A stretch of DNA of 64,000 nt. Source: Candidatus Saccharimonadota bacterium. GTDB taxonomy: Bacteria > Patescibacteriota > Saccharimonadia > Saccharimonadales > Saccharimonadaceae. Numbering within the stretch: position 1 is the first letter of the stretch; the number at the start of each line of letters is the position of its first letter. The position numbers and the translations under genes are program-made. This document shows positions 41,001-45,995 of this stretch, in pieces. The stretch is taken from the NCBI GenBank assembly GCA_028286365.1, contig JAQBRR010000001.1, forward strand, positions 478,582 through 542,581. The letters run 5' to 3'. The notes under the pieces were generated by a model, which saw only the letters and a list, made by a program, of their open reading frames with translations, searched no databases and was not told the origin of the DNA.

Positions 41001-41027
41001 CTATTGGCTAGCACATTAATTAATCAG

Positions 41028-41140
41028 CGTATTCAGAGTACAGCGAGAGAACTAGCTCTATGACCTGTCAGCAACCAGCCTCTTGAGCAATCAATGCATA
41101 AATGGTGCTACTTCTAGCCCATATGGGAAAGATAAGATAT
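41028..41140 (+). ncRNA. SAM riboswitch (SAM-I clan) aptamer upstream of metK
   Basis: SAM-I core-like CAGAG..CAGCGAGAGAACTAGCTCTATGACCTGTCAGCAACC...GGTGCTACTTCTAGCCCATATGGGAAAGATAAG. Confidence 0.85.
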
Positions 41141-41196: not shown

Positions 41197-42168
41197 ATGT
41201 CAATTTTTAGAACGGCCGAAAGTGTTTCGCCTAAACACCCAGACAAAATTTGTGATCAGATATCTGACGCTATATTAGATGCGCATCTTGCTCAGGATCC
41301 TGAGGCACGCGTTGCTATCGACGTTGCGGGTGGACATGGAACAGTTTTTGTAACTGGTGAAGTCACTTCGCGTGCCAAGAACGTTGACGTTAACGCTATT
41401 GTAAAGCGTCTAGCGGGTGATGTAACGGTAATTGAACATATAGCCGCCCAAAGCACTGAAATCGCTGCAGGCGTTGATATTGGCGGCGCTGGCGATCAAG
41501 GTATTATGGTTGGCTATGCTAGCGATGAAACGCCTGAGCTGTTGCCACTTGAGGTTGTATTGGCTCGTAAACTAAATCAGTACATATATAAAAAGTGGCC
41601 CTATGATGGCAAGACACAAGTGACGCTTAAGGACGGAGAAATCGTTTCCGTTGTTGCAAGTTTTCAGCACGCGGCAAAGGATCAATTAACTGCACTAGTC
41701 AAACGTTGGCTACGCACGCAGAAATTAGCTGAACTTGGTGTACTTGATCTGCATATTAATCCTGCAGGTGATTGGAACGTAGGTGGCTTTGATGCCGACG
41801 CAGGACTGACCGGACGTAAGCTCATCGTTGATAACTATGGACCACGTGTCCCGATTGGTGGCGGAGCATTTAGCGGTAAAGATCCGAGTAAAGTTGACCG
41901 CTCGGCTGCCTATATGGCTCGTAAAATTGCAATTGATTATCTCAAGAAGCGTCACGCGAAAGAAGTATTTGTACATTTAGCCTATGCAATTGGATACGAT
42001 CAGGCGCTTGAGGCGACGGTCAGCGTAGACGGCGTTCAGGAACAGGTTGTTGGCTATAATCTATCACCAAATGGAATTATCAAATTCCTTGATTTAAAGC
42101 GACCTATTTATGAAAAGACCGCGCAGTACGGACATTTTGGCCACCCAGGGCTTACCTGGGAAGTGTAG
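41197..42168 (+). CDS. metK: S-adenosylmethionine synthetase, short form (323 aa)
   Basis: ESVSPKHPDKICDQISDAILDA, GAGDQGIMVGYASDET, GGGAFSGKDPSKVDRSAAYMAR. Confidence 0.95.
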   Translation: MSIFRTAESVSPKHPDKICDQISDAILDAHLAQDPEARVAIDVAGGHGTVFVTGEVTSRAKNVDVNAIVKRLAGDVTVIEHIAAQSTEIAAGVDIGGAGDQGIMVGYASDETPELLPLEVVLARKLNQYIYKKWPYDGKTQVTLKDGEIVSVVASFQHAAKDQLTALVKRWLRTQKLAELGVLDLHINPAGDWNVGGFDADAGLTGRKLIVDNYGPRVPIGGGAFSGKDPSKVDRSAAYMARKIAIDYLKKRHAKEVFVHLAYAIGYDQALEATVSVDGVQEQVVGYNLSPNGIIKFLDLKRPIYEKTAQYGHFGHPGLTWEV

Positions 42169-44518: not shown

Positions 44519-45118
44519 ATGGCTGCAAATTATGAATCAAGCCCAAAAGTAATCACGCGTCTGAAGTTTCAAGCAGCTAGTCCCTTAGATGCGCAGATAA
44601 AAAAGTTGATGACGCTCGAGACTCGTGAAGCGGTCGCACACCATGCACAAATGACTGGCAAAACTCCTAGAATTGCGTTTCACACGGTACACAATCGCGC
44701 ATTAAACCTCGGTCCGACTGTAGAAAGTAGAGGCAAGGACACACTCGCGGATGAGCGGTATAGTGACTATATTGCATTGTCGCAAGACCATTTTTTTCAG
44801 CTTAAAAAAGCAATTACAATGAAAGACCAAAGTGATTATATTGAGCTTGGAGTAAATCTACATTTGCTCGGCGGTGAGAAAAAATTATTAATTGGTACGC
44901 CTTTATTCGCACCAAATCACGATACCGGCTTTGAACTGTATACGCGTATCCAGCGCAAAAATCTTTTAGCAGGTACAGCACTTGATCATGCATATGATCT
45001 TCTTGAAAACAGTATGACCATAGGTGCGGTTGATGAGATGGCCAGTTGGAATATGCAGGTGCATGGTGTAGAAGTTGAACACGAATGGCCTAGCCTTCGC
45101 CCCGTCTCTAACGAATAA
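44519..45118 (+). CDS. hypothetical protein
   Basis: ORF behind TTGAAC-17-TATAAT promoter; no family recognised. Confidence 0.55.
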   Translation: MAANYESSPKVITRLKFQAASPLDAQIKKLMTLETREAVAHHAQMTGKTPRIAFHTVHNRALNLGPTVESRGKDTLADERYSDYIALSQDHFFQLKKAITMKDQSDYIELGVNLHLLGGEKKLLIGTPLFAPNHDTGFELYTRIQRKNLLAGTALDHAYDLLENSMTIGAVDEMASWNMQVHGVEVEHEWPSLRPVSNE

Positions 45119-45120
45119 TC

Positions 45121-45150
45121 TTGGACAATTAAACGTGCATATGCTATAAT
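45121..45150 (+). promoter_or_regulatory. promoter, extended -10
   Basis: TTGGAC - 18 nt - TATAAT preceded by TGC. Confidence 0.8.
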
Positions 45151-45156
45151 AAAATT

Positions 45157-45210
45157 ATGGTATACAGCCAATCTAACCATCTACATATTCTGCCGGAGCG
45201 AATCGGTTAG
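45157..45210 (+). CDS. predicted leader peptide MVYSQSNHLHILPERIG
   Basis: ATG 6 nt after TATAAT (leaderless); His codons at 45178 and 45184; followed by intrinsic terminator. Confidence 0.55.
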   Translation: MVYSQSNHLHILPERIG

Positions 45211-45238
45211 TTTTCTTTTGTAATCTTTCATAAAAAAT

Positions 45239-45265
45239 AACGCCGAACATCGCTTCGGCGTTTTT
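45239..45265 (+). terminator. intrinsic terminator (candidate attenuator)
   Basis: AACGCCGAA-catcgc-TTCGGCGTT then TTT. Confidence 0.9.
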
Positions 45266-45296
45266 CGTTATTAAAAATATTTTATGGAGAATTACT

Positions 45297-45995
45297 ATGA
45301 TTGAAATTTATGAAAATTTGGAAAAGTCGATGCTAAGTATTGTCGATTATAAGAACATCCTCGTTATAGATAACGAGGAGCCACTCGTGCCAATTATTGA
45401 TGATAACAATCTAACCGCTAAGCAGCGGGGTGAAGACATGAAAGAATATACAGGTGATGTTGTATATGTTCGTCAGGGTACTGCACTACGGCTTGGAAGG
45501 GCAGCGGATTTACTTGTGACCGTAGAACCAGACATCGCTTTGAATGTTACGTACGGTTACCGGGCTCTACAGGTTCAAACTAAGAGATTTGAGACTGTCA
45601 AACGTGATCTTGAAATGCAGTTTTCTGGTGAGGAGCTTGATATGGCCGCTCACCGCCGGGTAGCACGTCCTGATGTTGCCGGACATCCCACTGGTGGAGC
45701 AGTCGACATACAGATAACACGCCAGGGTGAGGCTGTAGATTTTGGAACAAGAATTGGTGAATTTGTCCCCGACACCTATACGTTTTCGCCGTATGTCAGT
45801 ATGGAAGCAATGAGAAACCGAATGTTACTTCGAACGGTCATGATGGCAGCAGGCTTTGCCCCCTTTGACGGTGAGTGGTGGCACTTCTCATATGGCGACA
45901 AAGAATGGGCTAGGTATACTAAGCAACCAAATGCCGTCTATAAACAACTCAATTTTGGATCAAGTATATTTGAGAATACAGGAGAACAAGAATGA
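45297..45995 (+). CDS. D-alanyl-D-alanine dipeptidase-like (VanX/DdpX, M15D)
   Basis: GHPTGGAVDIQI and EWWHFSYGDKEWA metal-binding motifs. Confidence 0.85.
   Translation: MIEIYENLEKSMLSIVDYKNILVIDNEEPLVPIIDDNNLTAKQRGEDMKEYTGDVVYVRQGTALRLGRAADLLVTVEPDIALNVTYGYRALQVQTKRFETVKRDLEMQFSGEELDMAAHRRVARPDVAGHPTGGAVDIQITRQGEAVDFGTRIGEFVPDTYTFSPYVSMEAMRNRMLLRTVMMAAGFAPFDGEWWHFSYGDKEWARYTKQPNAVYKQLNFGSSIFENTGEQE

Follow-up and report, generated by a model that had tools for sequence, protein, structure and literature searches.

The window (the whole stretch of 64,000 nucleotides analysed here, from a Candidatus Saccharimonadota bacterium) contains two overlapping genes, for a dipeptidase family protein and a histidyl-tRNA synthetase, preceded by a promoter, a short open reading frame (ORF) with histidine codons and, between this ORF and the structural genes, an intrinsic terminator (Table 1). 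The preceding ORF ends at 45118. An earlier sequence-only reading of the locus had described the promoter with its 18-nt spacer and an ATG 6 nt after the -10, the small ORF with two histidine codons, the complementarity of CTAACC to GGTTAG, the terminator stem with its T-tract and the ATGA overlap of the dipeptidase ORF with hisS, and all of these were seen again at the same positions. It had also noticed no clear second -10 before the next gene, and no second sigma-70-like promoter was found within 44900-45500. The pairing of segments 2 and 3 that it proposed as an antiterminator exists but was described too short: in addition to 45203-45206 with 45243-45246, positions 45192-45201 pair with 45250-45259, and both arms of the terminator as well as its loop are engaged. 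The leader RNA had a folding z-score of -4.6 relative to shuffled sequences.

Table 1. Features of the hisS leader region and the genes behind it (positions in the window).
Feature	Position	Strand	Remarks
Sigma-70-type promoter	45121-45150	+	TTGGAC (45121-45126), 18 nt, TATAAT (45145-45150); extended -10 TG
Putative leaderless leader peptide ORF, MVYSQSNHLHILPERIG and stop	45157-45210	+	ATG 6 nt past the -10; His-to-stop distances conserved
HxH sensor codons (candidate), CAT CTA CAT	45178-45186	+	His at 45178 and 45184
Predicted effective stall site, first His codon	45178-45180	+	Ribosome-position folding
Segment 1, CTAACC	45173-45178	+	Pairs with GGTTAG 45205-45210 (1:2 protector); covariation z = -6.5
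Segment 2, antiterminator 5' arm	45192-45206	+	Folding and covariation
Segment 3, terminator 5' arm	45239-45247	+	Its 45243-45246 has a second partner, 45203-45206
Segment 4, terminator loop and 3' arm (45254-45262)	45250-45262	+	45250-45259 is the antiterminator 3' arm
Intrinsic terminator T-tract	45261-45265	+	First two T also close the stem
Putative regulated gene 1, M15 (VanX-like) D-Ala-D-Ala dipeptidase family protein, 232 aa	45297-45995	+	PF01427, E 1.4e-16; GGAG Shine-Dalgarno upstream
Putative regulated gene 2, hisS, histidyl-tRNA synthetase, 465 aa	45992-47389	+	TIGR00442 above cut-off; PF13393

Rfam matches in the window were limited to two tRNAs and a SAM riboswitch, with no T-box, His_leader or other family matched at the leader locus; the gathering threshold was not reached and the element is therefore not filed as a His_leader member. 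The SAM riboswitch (RF00162, 48 bits, 41026-41138, plus strand) lies upstream of a metK-like ORF (41197-42168). A scan of 847.8 kb of sequence fetched from the 850.7-kb genome, in overlapping stretches that included the window and covered all but the last 11 kb or so of contig 2, recovered only eight places with a -10, an ATG at 5-7 nt, a small ORF and a terminator. Among them the hisS leader stood alone in antiterminator energy, at -26.8 kcal/mol where the runner-up had -11.1, and no second comparable attenuator was found in the sequence scanned.

By its closest named relatives, the window belongs to a Saccharibacteria genome. A DNA search of 100 relatives located homologous leaders before hisS operons in genomes of the same genus, the same family and the same order. 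A first covariance model, built from nine of these homologous leaders, matched 69 of 298 genomes and 51 of 143 genera of the Saccharibacteria order. A second, built from 71 sequences, reached E < 1e-5 at 22 of 80 named hisS loci, in every case on the strand that carries hisS. Good matches were restricted to the order when 389 genomes of the phylum were searched by model; the weak matches outside it (E 1e-5 to 0.009) had no His leader and look like chance. Most hisS genes in the window's own genus were without a detectable leader, so the leader is dispensable or replaced there. Outside the order but within the phylum, one genome (L258 in G562) carries a small ORF that looks leaderless, MNLLQMQSSTKKSRPVVG, together with a terminator and a complementary segment; the ORF has no histidine and the element is perhaps an attenuator for another signal.

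The sequence-only reading would have been undermined by homologous loci lacking the small ORF or the alternative pairings. The homologues instead keep the ORF, the histidine codons and the three helices, with compensatory changes. Covariation was measured on 63 leaders by asking how well, in duplex energy, the segments of one leader pair with each other compared with segments swapped in from other leaders (20,000 permutations). For the antiterminator, cognate pairs gave -25.7 kcal/mol against -18.0 for swapped pairs (z = -13.7, 0 of 20,000 permutations); the terminator 3:4 helix (z = -13.5) and the 1:2 helix (z = -6.5) were likewise never equalled in 20,000 permutations. Kinship among the leaders inflates these z-scores, while control segments were null under equal kinship (z = -0.7 and +2.0). 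Compensatory changes could be read directly, as in the 1:2 helix (CTAACC:GGTTAG versus CTATCC:GGATAG) and in the segment 2 pairings CTTAGGTCGG with CCGACCTAA (G111) and GTGGTCGGA with TCCGACCA (G115). Alignment column pair counts agreed with the swap tests; of the two alignments, A2 was fitted to the antiterminator and A1 was not. The 1:2, 2:3 and 3:4 helices are mutually exclusive and backed by covariation, and this covariation and the conserved histidine codons are what the earlier reading had proposed to look for in related genomes.

Of 67 leaders, 53 have a histidine codon 8 codons ahead of the stop, 50 have one at distance 10 and 37 at distance 11, with synonymous exchange between CAT and CAC. 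That every leader contains histidine is partly selection, at least one His having been required when leader ORFs were picked. The genes downstream of 69 leaders, with families confirmed on representatives, were hisS (48), hisG (13), hisD (7) and hisI (7), placing the targets in the histidine pathway; the leader also heads genes for an M15 peptidase and an AstE/AspA-like hydrolase. Ten of the 69 loci lacked any searched gene, and six of these ten have less than 1 kb of sequence. Of 60 relatives searched, only the closest, G023, has a hisD, which is there the second gene under the leader in an operon hisG-hisD-hisI-hisS, and no copy was detectable in the window's genome. Because histidine-biosynthesis genes stand under the leader in 14 of the 69 loci, histidine is indicated as the signal, which goes against the proline, leucine or general translation-rate signal that had been offered as an alternative. 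We also considered the dipeptidase as a conserved partner and rejected it: a relative of this protein was found in only 15 of 100 genomes, which marks it as variable cargo, and M15 homologues head the operon elsewhere.

Two further arrangements were observed among these loci. A pair encoding a protein of about 220 aa without Pfam match and an AstE/AspA-like hydrolase of about 235 aa recurs under the leader (L093, L139, L140 and others). Three loci (L123, L125 and L128, in G093, G113 and G123) have variant leaders ending in HHDHL, and their antiterminator segment begins just past the stop codon.

The effect of ribosome position was modelled by folding only the RNA that lies 13 nt or more beyond the first base of the codon in the A site, a textbook figure for the ribosome footprint. 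The terminator was lost in 98% of leaders when 10 codons separated the A site from the stop and in 43% when 9 did; at 8 codons it was kept in 87%. Since the loss of the terminator switches between 10 and 8 codons, the likely sensors in this model are the first histidine of HxH (position 10) and, where present, the extra histidine at 11. In the window, the antiterminator formed with P = 1.0 when the first His codon (45178) was in the A site, and the terminator formed with P = 1.0 when the ribosome was at the stop; in this folding a stall at the first His codon would free segment 2, whereas at the stop the ribosome would hide it, the latter as the earlier reading had it. That reading placed the decisive stall at the second His codon (45184). 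This codon sits beyond the folding switch: 45197 onward is free and the terminator still wins at equilibrium (P = 0.95), with a footprint one or two nucleotides smaller giving a mixed or favourable outcome in a scan of the first free base, and the second codon was rejected as the main sensor at equilibrium. The 1:2 hairpin was favoured before synthesis of the terminator (P = 0.78). The full ribosome-free RNA preferred the antiterminator at equilibrium (-30.7 versus -22.3 kcal/mol). The resting state would therefore be set by kinetics, and termination at the basal level requires that the 1:2 helix folds during transcription or that translation is fast.

In 39 of 53 leaderless homologues the distance from the end of the -10 hexamer to the start codon is 6 or 7 nt, and on this positional evidence the leader appears to be translated from a leaderless mRNA. 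The fetched genome sequence contains 772 ORFs of 120 aa or longer; in front of their ATG, hexamers resembling a -10 peaked at 6 nt (78), 7 nt (41) and 8 nt (40) over a background of about 8. Leaderless mRNAs thus appear common in this genome, given the sharpness of the peak.

The leader ORF, its histidine codons, the helices, the promoter spacing and the target genes find support in the comparison of sequences, and the element is very probably a transcription attenuator of the his/trp type that responds to histidine through a translating ribosome and whose leader peptide is leaderless. The earlier reading, a his-type attenuator with a leaderless leader before a dipeptidase-hisS operon, was largely right, with support from homologues, covariation and targets. 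From the sequence we infer the transcription start, the stalling of the ribosome and the sign of regulation as follows. RNA polymerase would start at or beside the A of the ATG at 45157, and the ribosome would load straight onto the 5' end of the mRNA. When His-tRNA(His) is scarce, the ribosome would stall once the codon at 45178, for the first histidine of HxH, has entered the A site, and leave 45191 onward free; segment 2 would pair with the terminator arms and the polymerase would enter the dipeptidase gene and hisS. When His-tRNA is plentiful, the ribosome would reach the stop and cover segment 2, and the terminator (45239-45265) would form. Without translation the 1:2 hairpin would form first and termination would be favoured.

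An incidental small ORF, with the upstream gene's ordinary terminator lying beside a weak promoter and the pairings arising by chance, would fit the frequency of intrinsic terminators after genes and the end of an ORF directly upstream. However, the -10 and the leader separate that gene from the terminator, the locus is unique genome-wide by antiterminator energy, and three exclusive, covarying helices are conserved across the order before hisS or hisGDI; helix covariation and target genes contradict chance, and we regard this explanation as extremely improbable. A leader that senses proline, leucine or the general rate of translation through conserved L-P-E residues gains something from the Pro codon found a few codons ahead of the stop in most leaders. 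Yet G121 (SHTSLELAG) and G190 (HTHITSARAA) keep histidine without proline, and the Pro/Glu codons coincide with GCCGGAG, which is obliged to pair with the terminator, and change along with it (PE to PA in the class described below). With the folding switch at the His codons and his genes as targets, we rejected this signal, to which we give very little probability.

hisS is a T-box target in Firmicutes, and a protein- or ligand-dependent riboswitch or T-box might act here in place of ribosome stalling. The locus has no Rfam match, though, is too short for a T-box at about 110 nt, and carries in-frame His codons that vary synonymously at a fixed distance from the stop, which makes such a device most unlikely. 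The leader might also, or mainly, act in trans, its terminated RNA or peptide regulating other mRNAs in the manner reported for rnTrpL/peTrpL of S. meliloti (PMC7298713). A leaderless terminated RNA of this size does resemble rnTrpL, but the cis pairings account for the conservation, and we consider action in trans improbable.

A second class comprises at least 16 loci of relatives (the 16 listed include near-identical copies, with 14 left after their removal; L244 and L246 are further cases) that lack the small ORF. Here an ORF of about 110 aa ends in the His motif, HHxHxxPARAD or a variant of it. This ORF encodes a TrpR-related protein of the YerC/YecD type (TIGR02531, 60.4 bits for one representative against a cut-off of 42.2; PF01371), a family that has been named HisR (PMC9413887). 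The promoters of 16 of 16 loci (14 without near-identical copies) carry TTTAnnnnnnTAAA, which matches the core of the published HisR motif cacTTTAnnnnnnTAAAgtg (PMC9413887); TTTACTTTGGTAAA is a putative operator of this class. Most of these promoters, with spacing read by eye, have the form TTGACA-17-TAAAgT-6/7-ATG, and for this reason the fused genes look leaderless too. Their antiterminators covary (z = -4.3, 14 of 20,000 permutations). Downstream lie hisI-hisG-hisD-hisS (G270), hisG-hisD (G089, G190) or, by inspection, hisI-hisG (G066, L244). One genome (G050) has both classes of leader; a search of the window's own genome for hisR found none.

We consider it likely that a single leaderless gene, whose -35 and -10 flank a HisR operator, would here encode a repressor whose tail codons measure His-tRNA and gate the downstream hisG, hisD, hisI, hisS or hydrolase gene, the repressor gene being its own attenuator leader; repression by HisR and sensing by its tail are both predicted from sequence. 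Free-standing leaders in G001 (of the window's genus) and G234 share a PARA-like tail, which suggests that either class can turn into the other as the HisR core is lost or gained. Two loci of the window's genus (L249 in G021, L250 in G020) have more distant TrpR/HisR-like ORFs with the HHH tails MHHHSTNQSRRV and LHHHSNSSQLRRELS, each tail followed by a hairpin complementary to its codons and then by a 295-aa ORF; these are possibly an independent fusion. At L247 (G085) a HisR-like ORF ending in SDSEHHS lies directly upstream of a 429-aa HisRS-like ORF, with a long hairpin and no clear T-tract.

The his operon of enterobacteria has an attenuator of its own. That system (His_leader, hisL of E. 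coli and Salmonella; PMC9413887) has in common with the present one a leader with His codons, the 1:2/2:3/3:4 logic, an intrinsic terminator and histidine-biosynthesis targets. The Saccharibacteria form differs in being apparently leaderless, in having HxH or HHxH and no tandem His run, in targets that include hisS and a peptidase, in a segment 2 that pairs with both terminator arms, and in having no Rfam match. Candidate his attenuators of the Bacillus cereus group, Eubacteriales and Erysipelotrichales (PMC9413887) share a predicted His leader with terminator and antiterminator before his genes; they have three to five consecutive His codons and occur in lineages without HisR, whereas many Saccharibacteria relatives unite HisR and a putative attenuator in one gene. 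The leaderless leader peptide of the earlier reading has precedents elsewhere in trpL of S. meliloti (PMC7298713) and in ilvBNC of C. glutamicum, whose leader has no ribosome binding site (Morbach 2000, in PMC4046766). In both, a leader translated from the 5' end or without a Shine-Dalgarno sequence controls attenuation, for other amino acids and in other phyla. For the tRNA synthetase genes trpS and leuS of Streptomyces, attenuation mediated by the ribosome has been predicted (PMC1262725); these differ in amino acid and phylum, with no mention of leaderless starts there.

The fused class shares with the HisR regulons (PMC9413887) a TIGR02531/PF01371 protein and the TTTAnnnnnnTAAA operator at its own promoter; it differs in a C-terminal extension whose His codons would serve as attenuator leader, and Patescibacteria are not among the phyla listed there. 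In YtgCR of Chlamydia trachomatis (PMC7755916) codons inside a repressor gene likewise sense an amino acid and alter transcription. Limitation at WWW in YtgCR promotes termination of the repressor gene itself, whereas stalling in the Saccharibacteria tail is predicted to prevent termination before the downstream genes. The his/trp attenuation logic, leaderless leaders, synthetase attenuators and HisR are thus each known separately (PMC9413887; PMC7298713; PMC4046766; PMC1262725). The occurrence in Saccharibacteria, the leaderless HxH form before hisS and the HisR-tail form are apparently new as far as we found: a literature search returned nothing on histidine attenuators in Saccharibacteria and nothing on a leader fused to HisR, which is weak evidence given that subscription papers were outside its scope.

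For a phylum that depends on hosts and is largely uncultured, and for which we found no attenuator described, the element offers a histidine-sensing switch with a readable mechanism. The window's organism, with no hisD found, apparently cannot make histidine; the element suggests that bacteria of this kind sense it all the same. The leader also provides a genomic tag for a histidine regulon that is so far unannotated, with the M15 peptidase, the AstE/AspA-like hydrolase and the protein of about 220 aa without Pfam match. If the HisR-tail form is true, the last codons of a transcription factor's own gene would be the sensor of an attenuator, joining two layers of histidine control that are normally separate.
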